Assembly: GCA_001799195.1 (NCBI GenBank)
Contig: MGSU01000181.1
Coordinates: 1 to 8,496 of the forward strand
Source: Deltaproteobacteria bacterium RIFOXYA12_FULL_61_11
GTDB taxonomy: Bacteria > Bdellovibrionota_F > JAHFAK01 > YA12-FULL-61-11
Direction of reading: 5' to 3'
Length of the DNA stretch: 8,496 nucleotides
Shown: positions 2,761 to 8,496 of the stretch, piece by piece
How the letters are laid out: every line of letters starts with the position of its first letter
How positions within the stretch are numbered: the first letter of the stretch is position 1
The notes under the pieces: model-generated
What the model saw: only the letters and a program-made list of their open reading frames with translations
What the model was told of the DNA's origin: nothing
Databases searched by the model: none
Position numbers and translations under genes: made by a program

Positions 2761-5244
2761 TCACGGACCTTCGGGCGGCTCGGGCAGGAACACTTCGGTG
2801 AGCAACGCGCCGACGATAGCTCCGAACGAACCGAGGAAGACCCTCCAGGCCCCTGAGATCAGCGCCGCCTGACCCTGGGCGTACCAGCCGAGCACGAAGG
2901 CGGAGAAGGTCGAGAGGACCGCCAGGATCAGCCCGGAGAGCGCGGCGCTGCCGATCCGGGCGGGCAGCGGGGTTCCCTTCGCGGCGAGCGTGGTGAGGGA
3001 GCCGCAGAGCAGCGGCAGGAAGAGCACCAGGGCCCAGATCTCGCGCAGCCCAACCCCCGAGCCGGCGGAACGGCGCAGCAAGGCTTCTCCGAGGGTAAAA
3101 CCCGCCGCACCGAGCACTCCCACCACGGCCAAGGGCCAATACCGATGCTGCTGGCGGGACCGGAGTTCGGCCCGCCTCTTCATGCGCCGGCGCAGGGTCA
3201 GCGGCCAGTTGTAGCAGAGACAGAAGACCGTGTGTTCCAACAAGGCCCCGCGCTCGCCGAACACCGGTACGATGTGTACCGCCTCGGTCGCCCACCGCGT
3301 GGCCATGAACTGGGCCAGCTCCGGATACCGGTACCCCATCTGGATGGGGAAGGCCAAGTAACCTATGTATTTGAAGAAACTGAGTCCCATGGCGATGGTA
3401 TAGTCCTTGAGGTTGCGTTCTCGCAGGACCAACCAGACCACGTACAAACCCCGGGTCAGGGAACCCGGCGACACCGGGATGACCTGGAACAGGGCGACGA
3501 TACCCAGTCCGATGGCCCAGGCCTCACCCGCCGGCAGTTCGGGATGGGTCAGGACATAGCCGATCGCCAGCGAGACGGAGACCACCTGAGTGACCGGCAA
3601 GGTACAGACATGGACCGCCAAACTCTTGAGGTACCGTTGTATATAGGGGTCGTCGAGCTGGGACAAGATCCGTTCGGCCGCCTCCCCGGTCAGCATCCGC
3701 TCCGCCCGGCCCGCTTCGATCATCTCGCGCAGCCAGGTCTCGCGCAGGGGCTGATCGAAGTAGAGCCGCAAGGGACGTACAAAATAGTACGAGAGCCTGT
3801 CCCGGAGGTACGCCACCTCGGTTGTCATGCGATGCAGCCCTGCCGGTAAGAGGGCCAAGGGGAGCTGTGCGTACACCAGCGCGGGACGAGCGAGGAGGGC
3901 CGAGGCCCGCTCGGGATTGATCCGACCCGCTCGGTGCCACGCGAGGACGGTTTCACAGGCCTTACCGGCCAGGGCCTTGCCGAGATAGCCGCAGTTCGTG
4001 AGGAGGCTCTGATAGTGCCGACGCCAGCCGAGATGCCCCCAGGTCTTGCGGAGGAGTATCCCCAAGAACGGCACCAGGCCGAGCAGGAAGAGCCCGAGGC
4101 AACGGAAGCGCGAGGCCAGGAGACGCTCGCGGTGCGAGACGTCGAGCTGACCCTCGAGCCACCAACCCCGTGCCGAGGTATCGAGGACCGAGGTCCAGAA
4201 CGAGGCCCGGTGCAACCGGAAGAGATTGTGGGTGAGATCGAGGCCCCCTTCGCGATACCGTTGCTCGCACTGTTCCAACTCCTTCAACTGGTCCCGCAGG
4301 TCCTCGAATTCGTCCGGTCTGGAGGCGATGAACGTCCGAAGGGTCTCGAGGTCCCCGCGATCGAACTGGACCAGGCTCCCGCGGCGCAAGCCATCGAAGA
4401 TCAGGCCGAAGTCGCCGGGGCTCATGGGCAAGCAGGGGAGCAGCGCCAGGCCTGCGCGGAAATCGACCGCGGTCAACCCCTCCCCGGGGCCGGCTCCCTC
4501 GCGCAATCTCTTGAGACAGTTGGGTTGGCTCTTCCACGTGGTCCAGGTATACTGCCGGGCGAACTCGTGGGCGCCCAGTTCGTGGAGCAGCGCCACGAAG
4601 CGGTCCATGAACTCCTTCTTAGCGCGGTACTCCGGCGAACCGAGCCGATCTTCCTCTCCACTCCAGCCCCGTTCCCAGCGTCGCAGGAGATCCATGCGGT
4701 CATCGACCTCGAGATCCCAGGTGCGCCCTTCGATCCACTCGCTGAGCTCTCCGCACGTCCCCAGGCGTTCGTCGACCAGGGTGGCGTGAATATCGACCAC
4801 CACCCGCTCGGTACCGAACCGCAACCTGGCCGCGCGCCGTATGAACTTCTGCCACAAGGCTCCGGCCCTGGCCGCGTAGGGGTTGACCTGGAGCTGGAAA
4901 GCTCCCTGGAACCCCACGGCATAGAGGGTGTCCCGGAACAGCTTGGAAGCCCCCGAAGGGGGAACGAGGAGTTTGAGAGCGTACTGTTTGCCGACCACCA
5001 GGTCCTGCAGGGGAGCTCCTTCGAGGGCCAGGAGGGTGACCCGGTAGACCTGCCCGGCAAAACCACCGCCGATGAAACGATCGAGGTGCAGGGTCGCCTT
5101 CGCCTTGCGTCGGCACGCAACCCCGGTGAGCTCGTAGACGAGCTCGGTGCCGGGCTCGTACCGCCGCAGCCGCATCGGCCGGTGCAGCCCGAGTGCTTCG
5201 AAGGCCTGGGTACAATCCTTTTCCACCATGGCCTCGCGCTCCAT
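2761..5244 (-). CDS. Atypical protein-kinase-like domain fused to a polytopic membrane domain
   Basis: An 827-residue protein that I cannot assign to a named family. Residues about 55-285 resemble a protein kinase fold: a glycine-rich loop IGGGFAGQVYRV (58-69), a strand with YALKLL (Lys91, the position of the ATP-anchoring lysine), a hinge-like SEWIEGRTW (168-176), and VDFRAG (Asp261), which matches a DFG magnesium site. The segment where HRDxxxxN is expected reads TWKSQPNCLKR: Asn242 is kept but the catalytic Asp is not evident, so it may be an unusual kinase or a pseudokinase. A charged linker follows (about 290-375). About eight to ten hydrophobic segments then span 381-820, with a conspicuous PVSPGSLTRG motif (590-599). 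There is no signal peptide, so the kinase-like part should be cytosolic (inference). The start is ATG 5244, preceded at five bases by GAGGTG; the in-frame GTG at 5247 is too close to that site. Last gene of the minus-strand block. Confidence 0.8.
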   Translation of the reverse strand: MEREAMVEKDCTQAFEALGLHRPMRLRRYEPGTELVYELTGVACRRKAKATLHLDRFIGGGFAGQVYRVTLLALEGAPLQDLVVGKQYALKLLVPPSGASKLFRDTLYAVGFQGAFQLQVNPYAARAGALWQKFIRRAARLRFGTERVVVDIHATLVDERLGTCGELSEWIEGRTWDLEVDDRMDLLRRWERGWSGEEDRLGSPEYRAKKEFMDRFVALLHELGAHEFARQYTWTTWKSQPNCLKRLREGAGPGEGLTAVDFRAGLALLPCLPMSPGDFGLIFDGLRRGSLVQFDRGDLETLRTFIASRPDEFEDLRDQLKELEQCEQRYREGGLDLTHNLFRLHRASFWTSVLDTSARGWWLEGQLDVSHRERLLASRFRCLGLFLLGLVPFLGILLRKTWGHLGWRRHYQSLLTNCGYLGKALAGKACETVLAWHRAGRINPERASALLARPALVYAQLPLALLPAGLHRMTTEVAYLRDRLSYYFVRPLRLYFDQPLRETWLREMIEAGRAERMLTGEAAERILSQLDDPYIQRYLKSLAVHVCTLPVTQVVSVSLAIGYVLTHPELPAGEAWAIGLGIVALFQVIPVSPGSLTRGLYVVWLVLRERNLKDYTIAMGLSFFKYIGYLAFPIQMGYRYPELAQFMATRWATEAVHIVPVFGERGALLEHTVFCLCYNWPLTLRRRMKRRAELRSRQQHRYWPLAVVGVLGAAGFTLGEALLRRSAGSGVGLREIWALVLFLPLLCGSLTTLAAKGTPLPARIGSAALSGLILAVLSTFSAFVLGWYAQGQAALISGAWRVFLGSFGAIVGALLTEVFLPEPPEGP

Positions 5245-5385
5245 CACGTCACCTCACGTTTTCCGGCAACCTCGTCGACAACGCTCTCCGCGGGGTAGGT
5301 CTCGCTGATCGAGAACGTGGCTCCCGTGTAGAAGATGCTGCGCTGGAAATCAAGGTTTTCCAACGTCTTGGGTTGGTCCTGGGGG
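5244..5385 (-). other. Probable out-of-frame 3' extension of the SUMF1-fold gene
   Basis: After the run of five C on the minus strand (plus 5381-5385, G5), codon bias moves to the next frame. The annotated frame reads A/T-ending codons (2 of 10 end in G or C) and stops at 5350. The +1 frame stays open to a TGA at 5246-5244 and 35 of its 45 codons end in G or C. It encodes a soluble tail ending in AESVVDEVAGKREVT. Its stop forms a TGATG junction with the ATG of the next gene, a common coupling arrangement. Dropping one base of the C run would give a 466-residue product instead of 431. Either a sequencing or assembly error or a real mutation would explain it. Confidence 0.55.
5250..5255 (-). 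promoter_or_regulatory. Ribosome binding site of the kinase-like/membrane gene
   Basis: On the minus strand GAGGTG lies five bases before the ATG at 5244. The same hexamer at the same spacing precedes the DUF3147 gene of this block. It favours ATG 5244 over the GTG at 5247. Confidence 0.6.
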
Positions 5386-6645
5386 TGTCCCGCGGGCCGA
5401 GGCACAACGAAATCCTGCCACATGGGAGCTATAGGCCTCGAACATCCAGTCCCGGCCGGTGGTGCGGAGCGAGGAGGGACCGCTGCTCCAGTTACCGCCG
5501 CGGAGCACCCGGTTGGTAAAGCTTTCTTTATTGACCGGGTCTTGTTCCGGAGCCCTCGCGTAGTACTGGCCATCGTACCAGTCGGCCACGAATTCCCAGA
5601 CATTGCCCCCGAGATCGCACACCCCCTCTGGGGTGTTCCCCTCGGGTTTGCTGCACACCGGCCAAGTGGTGCCGCGGCCACAACCCAGGCCCTCTTCCCT
5701 CGTGGCTAGCACGGCGCGGCGGCAGTCCGGCGGGGAGTCGCCCCAGGGAAATGGCCGGCCCTTCAACCCTCGGGCCGCGTATTCCCATTGGGCTTCGGTC
5801 GGCAAGTCCGCCCCGCGCCAAGCGCAATAGGCGGCAGCATCCATCCAATTGAGACAATTGACCGGATGGTCCGAACGATCGGGCGAACCTTCGTTGCAAT
5901 AGGGTTGTTCCTCACGACGCCGAGGTCTCTTACACTTCCCGGCCTCGACGCAGCGACGGTACTCCGCCACCGTGACTTCGTGACGATCGAGGGAAAAGGG
6001 CTGGAGACAGGCCCGATGTACCGGACGTTCGTCCTCGCGCCCCTCGTTCGAGCCCATGTCGAAACATGCCCCCGGTAGCTCGACCTGATCGCTGAGCTTC
6101 GCGTGCATCAGCGGCTCGAGGACGGCTTCGAAGAGCAGGGGTTTTTCTTTTCCTTCCCGGAGTTCGAGCCGAGCTTCCTCGAACCCCAAGCGTCTCACCC
6201 TGACCGAGCGAGCGCACACGGGGAGGTGCTGTCTGCCCGCAGCCGGCCCCATCCAGGCTCCATCGACGAAGAGGTCGGCGGTCAAACCCGCCCCACTGCC
6301 GTCTCGCACCAGGATTTCGAGGACCGAGGTCTTGGCCGCAACTCTCCCGTCGAGGAAGAGACTGCTCCCCGCTTCGAGGTCCACGGTCCACCCGAGGGTC
6401 TCATAACAAGCGCTCCCGACGCTCACCGTGTGCGTGCCCGCGGACACGCGCTTCGCCTCGAGCGGAGTGATCCCCGCCTCCTGGCGATCGATGATCACGG
6501 TCAGCCCCGGCGGGGTGGAATAGACGTAGAGCGTTCCCAGCGGCGCCCCCGCGGCAGGAACCTCGTCCGAGACCGCGCTCAGTGACAGAAAAGCCCCAAA
6601 ACAAAGCAGCCCGAACAATGCCTTGCGCGGAGTTGGTGCGTTCAT
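5350..6645 (-). CDS. Secreted PEGA plus SUMF1 (formylglycine-enzyme-fold) protein, probably frameshifted near the 3' end
   Basis: 431 residues as it reads here. An N-terminal signal sequence (Lys8 followed by ALFGLLCFGAFLSLSA) predicts export; the Cys in it does not form a good lipobox. Residues about 36-100 form a PEGA domain (LYVYSTPPGLTVIID, then AGITPLEA and AGTHTVSV), with a second, weaker PEGA-like copy at about 107-175 (LFVDGAWMGPA). Residues about 186-416 form a SUMF1 domain: FDMGSN, DRHEVTVAEYRRCV, PVNCLNWMDAAAYC, LPTEAQWEYAARG, CDLGGNVWEF, LRGGNW and AGFRCA. The two catalytic cysteines of true formylglycine-generating enzymes are absent from the segment after LRGG, so sulfatase activation is unlikely. 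Many other cysteines suggest disulfides in the periplasm. The start at 6645 gives an ATGA overlap with the DUF3147 stop and places the signal peptide at the N-terminus; the frame is open further upstream but that part would precede the signal sequence. The role is probably binding or structural (inference). Confidence 0.88.
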   Translation of the reverse strand: MNAPTPRKALFGLLCFGAFLSLSAVSDEVPAAGAPLGTLYVYSTPPGLTVIIDRQEAGITPLEAKRVSAGTHTVSVGSACYETLGWTVDLEAGSSLFLDGRVAAKTSVLEILVRDGSGAGLTADLFVDGAWMGPAAGRQHLPVCARSVRVRRLGFEEARLELREGKEKPLLFEAVLEPLMHAKLSDQVELPGACFDMGSNEGREDERPVHRACLQPFSLDRHEVTVAEYRRCVEAGKCKRPRRREEQPYCNEGSPDRSDHPVNCLNWMDAAAYCAWRGADLPTEAQWEYAARGLKGRPFPWGDSPPDCRRAVLATREEGLGCGRGTTWPVCSKPEGNTPEGVCDLGGNVWEFVADWYDGQYYARAPEQDPVNKESFTNRVLRGGNWSSGPSSLRTTGRDWMFEAYSSHVAGFRCASARGTPPGPTQDVGKP

Positions 6646-6989
6646 GCGAGCAACCTGAGATAGAGCCAATAGGCAAGGGCAGTACCGATGCAGGCGAGGA
6701 ACAGCGACGGATAGAAGGTCAAACCCTTGCGCACCAGCAAGGGCAGCACGAGGAAGAACACCAACGAAGGCAGGACCGCCCAGAAGATGTCCAGGGCGAG
6801 TGCGGCAGCCTTCTCGGCACCGATCGAAGCTCCCCCCTGTTCGTGGTAGACCCAGCACAAGGCCAGGAGCGAGGTCAAAGGCAACGAGGCCAGCACCGCG
6901 GCGAGAGGACCGGAGCGTCGGGTAGCCTCGGAAACCAGGGCGATGATCGCGCCAGAGAGCACCACCTTGAGCAGAAAATACCAGGACAT
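6642..6989 (-). CDS. DUF3147 family small membrane protein
   Basis: 115 residues, nearly all hydrophobic, with about four membrane helices: residues about 3-20, 27-48, 66-86 and 92-112. The pattern MSWYFLLKVVLSGAIIALVSE, then ASLPLTSLLALCWVY, then FWAVLPSLVFFLVLPLLVRKG matches my memory of DUF3147 proteins, whose function is not known. The start at 6989 has GAGGTG five bases upstream and lies 13 bases after the stop of the channel gene. An open frame extends further upstream, but it overlaps the channel coding region and loses the family N-terminus. Its stop overlaps the start of the SUMF1-fold gene as ATGA, so the two are probably translationally coupled. Membership of the family is fairly sure; any functional link to the channel or the SUMF1-fold protein is inference from the operon. 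Confidence 0.85.
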   Translation of the reverse strand: MSWYFLLKVVLSGAIIALVSEATRRSGPLAAVLASLPLTSLLALCWVYHEQGGASIGAEKAAALALDIFWAVLPSLVFFLVLPLLVRKGLTFYPSLFLACIGTALAYWLYLRLLA

Positions 6990-6994
6990 GCTAT

Positions 6995-7000
6995 CACCTC
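6995..7000 (-). promoter_or_regulatory. Ribosome binding site of the DUF3147 gene
   Basis: GAGGTG on the minus strand, five bases before the ATG at 6989 and just after the stop of the channel gene. It fixes the short form of the DUF3147 protein. Confidence 0.6.
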
Positions 7001-7002
7001 GC

Positions 7003-8496
7003 TCAATCCCGCACGAGATGGACCTCGCGCTGGGGGAAGGGTATGCCGATGTCGCGTTCGCGGAAGAGGGCGTCGAGCGAGCAATGCACCTGGTGGCGGA
7101 CCTGGAGCAGGCGTTCGACCCCATCCAGGTACACCCGCAAGGAAAAATCCAGGGAGCTCTCCCCGAAGCGGTTGAACACCACCGAGGGCGCCGGCTCGGC
7201 CAGCACGTCCGGAGTTGCGGCCGCGACCTCGAGCAAGGTCTTCTCCACGAGGGCGATGTCCGAACCATAGGCCACCCCGACCTCAATGACCTCCCGCACC
7301 ACGGGCGAGGACAGGGTCCAATTCACCACCTTACCGGTGATGAACTCCTTGTTGGGGATAATCAATTCCTTTCGATCCCAGTCTTCGATGGTCGTGGCGC
7401 GAATGCGGATCTGGGTCACCCGACCGGAGAGGTCCCCGACCGTGACGACGTCTCCGACCCGGATGGGTTGTTCGAAGAGGATGATGATGCCGGAGACGAA
7501 ATTGCCGAAGATCTCCTGGAGCCCGAAACCCAGCCCGACGCCGAAAGCTGCCACCAGCCACTGGATCTTTGCCCAACTCACCCCGAGCAAGCCTGCAGGA
7601 AGGACCACGGCCAGGGTAATGATCAGGTATTGCCCGAGAATGCTCACCGATTGCCGGGCTCCTTCGGATAATGAAAACTTCCTCCCCGCCCATGCGAGCA
7701 AGAACTCGGGTAGGCGCCGCCGCAGCAGGAGAGCCCCGCTGGAAATCACAAGGGCGAGTGCCAGATCGAACAAGCTGACCGCCTGCCGGGGCTCGGAACC
7801 TACCCCACCGACCGTCCACAGCACCGTCGTCTCCAAGATGTTCAGGGCCGGCAACAGGTCCTTCCAAACAGCATGCACGGCGACCAGGATCGCGAGCAGG
7901 GTCAGATAGGAAGCGAGGGGAGCCTCGAACGTGTGCGCCCCGAGGGGATCACGCTGCCGCGTCCCCGGAGGGCCGGCCAGGTCCCGGCGGTACCACCCCT
8001 GTCTCAGATGATAGAGGACCACGGCTCGCAGGGTGAACAGACCGGTCATCACGCCGATGGTCACGTGCAAGCGCTGGAAGATCTGGATCGTGGTGTAATA
8101 ATAGCCGGCGATGGCGAAACCGCCGAGGCCTGCCACCAGAACGATCAACCCCAGGATGGGGAGATACCCGCCGCCGGCTTTCCGGAGGCTCCGGAACCAG
8201 CCGGTAGGCTCGAGCCAAGCACAAGCCCCCTTGGGGAAGAAGTAGCGCAGCCCGCCGAGGAAGAGCACCAGACCGAACACGAAGAAGGAGCGACCGAGCA
8301 AGCCTCGGAACAGTTCGTCATCGAGGGCTTCAAAAAAGCTCACACCCACATAAAAAGGGACAAAGGCCGTGGTGAAACGCCGCAACGCCGTGGCCGTGAG
8401 GTCGAGTTGTTCGGAACTCCAGGAGAAATACCTGCCTCCTATACCTCCCGCTCGGACTGCCTGGAGCAGGAAGAAGATCGGCCACAGGGAGAGCGC
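7003..8496 (-). CDS. MscS-superfamily mechanosensitive channel, MscK/MscM-like (5' end outside window)
   Basis: The frame is open to the window edge, so the 497 visible residues are the C-terminal part of a larger protein; the TTG at 8385 is an internal codon, because sensible sequence (GGRYFSWSSEQLDLTATALRR) continues upstream of it. About seven or eight hydrophobic segments precede the pore helix AAFGVGLGFGLQEIFGNFVSG (about 7490-7560). The beta domain follows with EQPIRVGDVVTVGDLSGRV, IRIRATTIEDWDRKELIIPN and VVNWTLS. A C-terminal domain with GVAYGSD and FGESSLDFSLRVYLD ends the protein. The LGFGLQEIFGNF pore and the DRKE/IPNKEF stretch are closest to large E. coli MscK and MscM rather than small MscS (comparison from memory). 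Such channels sit in the inner membrane and open under tension to release solutes on hypo-osmotic shock. It is the first visible gene of the minus-strand block, 13 bases before the DUF3147 gene. Confidence 0.93.
   Translation of the reverse strand, partial: ALSLWPIFFLLQAVRAGGIGGRYFSWSSEQLDLTATALRRFTTAFVPFYVGVSFFEALDDELFRGLLGRSFFVFGLVLFLGGLRYFFPKGACAWLEPTGWFRSLRKAGGGYLPILGLIVLVAGLGGFAIAGYYYTTIQIFQRLHVTIGVMTGLFTLRAVVLYHLRQGWYRRDLAGPPGTRQRDPLGAHTFEAPLASYLTLLAILVAVHAVWKDLLPALNILETTVLWTVGGVGSEPRQAVSLFDLALALVISSGALLLRRRLPEFLLAWAGRKFSLSEGARQSVSILGQYLIITLAVVLPAGLLGVSWAKIQWLVAAFGVGLGFGLQEIFGNFVSGIIILFEQPIRVGDVVTVGDLSGRVTQIRIRATTIEDWDRKELIIPNKEFITGKVVNWTLSSPVVREVIEVGVAYGSDIALVEKTLLEVAAATPDVLAEPAPSVVFNRFGESSLDFSLRVYLDGVERLLQVRHQVHCSLDALFRERDIGIPFPQREVHLVRD

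Follow-up and report, generated by a model that had tools for sequence, protein, structure and literature searches.

A putative kinase-like head joined to a conserved polytopic membrane domain in what seems an undescribed bacterial protein family

The gene and its surroundings

The window analyzed here, a stretch of 8,496 nucleotides, contains on its minus strand an open reading frame at 2761..5244 (ATG 5244-5242; stop 2763-2761, included) for a protein of 827 amino acids, which its relatives match over the full length. A ribosome-binding site, GAGG, lies at 5252..5255 on the same strand with a spacing of 7 nt to the ATG, while translation of 2761-5244 on the plus strand is interrupted by stops. 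This is a real gene with a good ribosome-binding site, and the boundaries given in the first-pass annotation fit it exactly. An alternative GTG start three bases before the ATG would yield 828 amino acids; residues are numbered here from the ATG, and numbering from the GTG is higher by one (K92, N243 and D262 for K91, N242 and D261; D296 for D295). The motifs that had been quoted from the translation, namely FIGGGFAGQVYRV, YALK (K91), VDFRAG (D261), PVSPGSLTRG, FFKYIGYLAFPIQM and ATEAVHIVPVFGERGALLEH, are all found in the protein. They represent more than chance, since 23 relatives at 42-55% identity and four distant ones keep them in recognizable form.

Upstream of the gene on the same strand, after a gap of about 105 bp, 5350-6858 encodes a protein with PEGA and formylglycine-generating-enzyme-like (FGE-sulfatase) domains, and 7003-8496 (minus) a mechanosensitive channel of the MscS/MscK type, truncated by the window end. 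At about 6642-6990 (minus), a small multi-helix membrane protein lies in the frame of ORF 6642-7286; it is reminiscent of DUF3147, and the ORF has no match in Pfam. On the plus strand, 839-2230 encodes a beta-eliminating lyase of the tryptophanase/tyrosine phenol-lyase type, placed between the end of a histidine kinase (1-924) and a response regulator (ending at 2727).

Across phyla we found no conserved gene neighborhood: the recurring neighbor clusters consist of response regulators and further common genes, or reflect synteny among near-relatives. Except for such common genes, no neighbors recur across phyla, so that the neighborhoods link the family to no pathway. An FGE-sulfatase gene is shared between the window and one other locus (L066), where it lies more than 4 kb from the target gene, and the association looks coincidental. 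In a single case (genome G323), a PspA/Vipp1 (IM30) gene (L049 11846-12580, minus) is located two genes away from a short form of the family.

Relatives, distribution and loss

The searches returned 27 relatives. Twenty-three of them, from five phyla and a Phycisphaerales MAG whose copy is full-length and 51% identical, show 42-55% identity to the window protein. The remaining four are short (about 540 amino acids, 20-22% identical) and belong to a phylum that looks cyanobacterial, judging from neighboring genes such as DUF3110. The gene is found across several poorly known candidate phyla and, in its short form, apparently in cyanobacteria.

Neither the window protein nor any relative passed the curated cut-off of a Pfam or NCBIfam model, and consensus sequences had no match in Pfam. 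No meaningful hit came from PHROGs, scanned with the window protein, or from PADLOC, scanned with three members, searches of PDB sequences with the window protein and its relatives found no sequence relative, and no relatives appeared in two viral-contig scans, plasmids or phages. Literature searches likewise found no description of the protein family. The architecture had been proposed as undescribed from the sequence alone, and these results agree: a kinase-like head with this membrane domain seems to be a family that nobody has described.

Within the host phylum, the host alone of two genomes has the gene. A profile search of 386 genomes from across the domain identified eight carriers, the host included, and within four carrier phyla the gene is present in 1/5, 3/3, 3/9 and 15/82 genomes. 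In the cyanobacterial-looking phylum it occurs in six of 291 genomes, two of these six being remnants. One decayed short form, in genome G722, is a 92-amino-acid piece (L037 1414-1689) flanked by genes for an Xaa-Pro peptidase and FtsH; the congener G670 carries an intact copy (L034 757-2340) between the same genes, at the same chromosomal place, and therefore the gene can be lost. In the tree, the split between the short group and all others is fully supported, and several phyla make up clades of their own; the largest clade (14 rows) contains both long and short-tailed forms. This distribution fits an old, patchily kept gene; transfer is also possible.

Long and short forms share both parts of the protein in the same order. 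Profile-profile comparison of the two groups gave 96.2% (E 2.4e-9, 225 columns, score 69) for the N-terminal part and 96.9% (E 1.4e-10, 235 columns, score 79) for the C-terminal part, against shuffle maxima of 23. Apart from the two remnants and sequences truncated at contig ends, no single-domain relative turned up. As both domains occur in every relative covering both, the head and the membrane domain would work together.

The kinase-like head and the membrane domain

The N-terminal domain (residues 27-344; 4213..5166, minus) is supported by profile-profile comparison and a fold search of its model. Against bacterial Ser/Thr kinases from other genomes, hhalign gave 62% (E 7e-5, score 41.0). 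In this alignment K91 falls on the VAIK lysine, and the glycine loop and the hinge E-[WF]-[IV]-x-G are paired as well. The best of 100 column-shuffles scored 23.1 and the reversed profile 14.8; in a background set of 180 neighboring ORFs, the top match (38.0) turned out to be a Ser/Thr kinase that carries HRDIKPEN. The C-lobe profile matched neither Ser/Thr-kinase nor ABC1 C-lobes. AlphaFold models, built from two sequences only, were poor, with a mean pLDDT of 36.7 for the full protein and 42.7 for the N-terminal domain, mostly 46-73 in its beta-sheet part. With the latter model, the best 50 Foldseek matches in the PDB were all of protein-kinase fold, most over about 60 residues and with E-values of 0.2 and worse, none significant. 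A second aligner placed kinase folds in all 50 of its listed rows (Z 5.8-6.9, 74-92 residues), within model residues 1-150, so that the match to the two-lobed fold is limited to the N-lobe. Nothing useful came out of the viral fold library. Each line is modest alone and some sequence signal is common to them; together they indicate that a kinase N-lobe is likely, to which a C-lobe of the same fold would be attached. The kinase-like character claimed by the first-pass annotation is accordingly supported for the N-lobe, whereas the C-lobe goes unrecognized by profile.

The residues expected around a nucleotide are well kept. The glycine-rich loop GGGFAGQVY (residues 59-67; 5044..5070, minus) aligns to the Ser/Thr-kinase P-loop and is invariant in the long forms, and GxGxxGxV is retained in 27/27 rows covering it, short group included. 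K91 (4972..4974, minus), aligned to the VAIK-type beta3 lysine, is invariant in the 27 covering rows. The hinge-like E-W-I-E-G-R (residues 169-174; 4723..4740, minus) aligns to the kinase hinge EYVxG, with its glycine and arginine invariant in 28/28. DFRAG (residues 261-265; 4450..4464, minus) resembles DFG by position, not by profile alignment; D261 is invariant in all 28 sequences within D-x-x-x-G, as is G265. The invariance of K91 and D261, suggested earlier as a check, is thereby seen. D295 (4360..4362, minus), 34 residues after D261, is invariant where the sequence is present, and K91, D261 and D295 persist across groups only about 20% identical.

The catalytic loop differs. In place of HRDxxxxN stands KSQPN (residues 238-242; 4519..4533, minus), whose lysine and proline are invariant in 28/28; nearly all long forms read K-S-Q-P-N-x-L-K, and the short group K-G-[NST]-P-x-A-[FL]-N. 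The position of the catalytic aspartate is occupied by Q240 in 24/24 long forms and by N, S or T in the short group, and neither HRD nor HGD occurs; the aspartate that had been reported missing is absent from all 28 sequences. By loop alignment, the metal-binding asparagine of HRDxxxxN is kept in the short group only. N242, listed earlier among the residues to check, is not supported as the catalytic-loop asparagine: it is invariant in the 24 long forms but variable (V/T/S/N) in the short group, and is therefore not the canonical residue. A pseudokinase has been defined by the loss of any of three catalytic residues (PMC12599244), and the head falls under this definition because its catalytic aspartate is replaced by Gln, Asn, Ser or Thr. 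Judged by these residues, the head is predicted to be a pseudokinase or an atypical transferase.

A linker (3646..4212, minus), shorter in the short group, follows the head, with a membrane hairpin near residues 380-402 and helix-turn-helix repeats G-R-x-x-x-E-x-A. Residues 360-535 and the matching part of L033-L036 also contain recurring helix-turn-helix units of the form W-x-x-x-G-R-[IV]-x-x-x-x-A-x-x-L. The conserved membrane core (residues 534-689; 3178..3645, minus) is common to the short group by profile-profile comparison and includes three motifs on the minus strand: PVSPGSLTRG (3448..3477; G594 and R598 invariant), GYLAFPIQM (3337..3363; P633 and Q635 invariant) and VPVFGERGALLEH (3232..3270; E670 invariant, H671 in 26/27 rows reaching it). 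H545, G594, R598, P633, Q635 and E670 are kept in every row that reaches them. Only the long form has the C-terminal membrane tail (2764..3138, minus) of about four helices. Hydropathy peaks near residues 381-399, 544-565, 576-594, 706-724, 737-755, 768-786 and 803-821, with two to four helices between 540 and 640, bear out the polytopic C-terminal half proposed at first reading. The membrane domain is conserved and, in profile comparisons, matches no tested family.

Possible function and known systems

We tentatively favor a role for the nucleotide-binding head as a switch or scaffold for its own attached membrane domain. The head would belong to a polytopic inner-membrane protein and is presumably cytoplasmic because it has neither a signal sequence nor an early membrane helix; its kinase fold would comprise an N-lobe recognized by similarity and a putative C-lobe. 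The glycine loop, K91 and D261 are what holding Mg-ATP needs, so that nucleotide binding is predicted, and ordinary phosphotransfer is most likely absent because no aspartate occupies the catalytic-base position. Once bound to nucleotide, the head would regulate the membrane domain, which may handle a membrane substrate itself, as suggested by the invariant polar residues H545, R598, Q635, E670 and H671. Counting against a switch, K238, Q240, P241 and N242 are strongly conserved in the long forms; this conservation looks like a retained active site and is as compatible with an atypical enzyme as with a switch.

Such an enzyme, an active transferase that would bind ATP and use residues other than the HRD aspartate to move AMP, phosphate or another group onto a lipid or a protein that the membrane domain holds, comes next and is in our estimate rather unlikely. 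SelO offers a precedent as an AMPylase without the catalytic aspartate (PMC12409994), and the glycine loop, K91, D261 and K-S-Q-P-N are conserved more than a pure scaffold needs, but the short-group loop K-G-[N/S/T]-P means that no single side chain is kept at the base position. More doubtful is a new class of membrane enzyme, whose kinase-fold head with a non-aspartate site (K-S-Q-P-N, K91, D261) would modify the lipid or protein that a new-fold membrane domain, with its own invariant His/Arg/Gln/Glu/His set, presents to it. That the N-terminal domain has a non-kinase fold, its glycine loop and lysine being chance likenesses, is very improbable: profile and fold comparisons both point to kinases and agree on the residues, while shuffles and reversed profiles do not, even though there is no HMMER family match, no C-lobe signal, and no fold match significant alone.

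Little probability attaches to a divergent ABC1/UbiB (ADCK) member, that is, a membrane-associated kinase-like ATPase of isoprenoid lipid or quinone metabolism. In UbiB proteins too, a kinase-like domain is followed by C-terminal membrane helices, and the GQVYR stretch resembles ABC1 ASxGQVYRA, where hhalign aligns 29 columns; its probability there, however, is 6.5%, weaker than for Ser/Thr kinases, inspection finds KxGQ, the alanine-rich AAAS loop and DxHPGN all absent, PF03109 is unmatched at E<=10 by the window protein, relatives or consensus, and the membrane part of our protein is far larger. We hold it similarly improbable that the protein is a lipid flippase or transporter, akin to LPG_synthase_TM or DedA/VTT, that a pseudokinase regulates. 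The precedent would be mycobacterial MviN, in which a pseudokinase is joined to a polytopic membrane protein that peptidoglycan synthesis requires (PMC12599244). The LPG_synthase_TM profile (PF03706) gave 3-5% over 29-30 columns around PxxPG, scoring 24.6 against 16.5 in 40 shuffles, but the membrane core alone scores 21.4 (shuffle maximum 20.3), and the best single LPG sequence reaches 18.6 compared with 20.4 for unrelated membrane proteins. The DedA/VTT profile (PF09335) gave 0.4%, within the shuffle range. The flippase resemblance noted at first is therefore not upheld.

The kinase-like fold proposed for the head is a known one, while neither the domain combination nor the altered catalytic loop nor the membrane domain turned up in the searched libraries and literature. 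The invariant residues named in both domains are direct test targets. Like Ser/Thr kinases of the PF00069 group, the protein has the glycine loop, the VAIK lysine, the hinge E-[YW]-[IV]-x-G and a DFG-type aspartate; unlike them, it lacks the HRD aspartate, a metal-binding asparagine in the canonical place, a profile-recognizable C-lobe and a Pfam match. With ABC1/UbiB/COQ8 it shares the general plan and the GQVYR-type loop, not the signature motifs, and with LPG_synthase_TM a P-x-x-P-G motif after a membrane helix, to which the similarity, not above background, is confined. SelO is not known to carry a polytopic membrane domain, and the target has no Pfam match to its family. The likeness, at the level of description, is a kinase fold without the catalytic aspartate at its usual place (PMC12409994).

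In bacteria, few studies have dealt with pseudokinases fused to polytopic membrane proteins; one known case is MviN, essential for peptidoglycan synthesis. In Mycobacterium tuberculosis MviN/MurJ, the ActPs3 pseudokinase domain (residues 710-942) follows the membrane part of the polytopic protein to which it is joined, and all three of its catalytic motifs are degraded (PMC12599244). In our protein, by contrast, the kinase-like domain comes first and retains the lysine and the DFG aspartate, and the MurJ model of Pfam does not match the protein. A second architecture, unrelated to MviN and spread over several candidate phyla and probably cyanobacteria, would show repeated recruitment of kinase-fold heads to membrane proteins.
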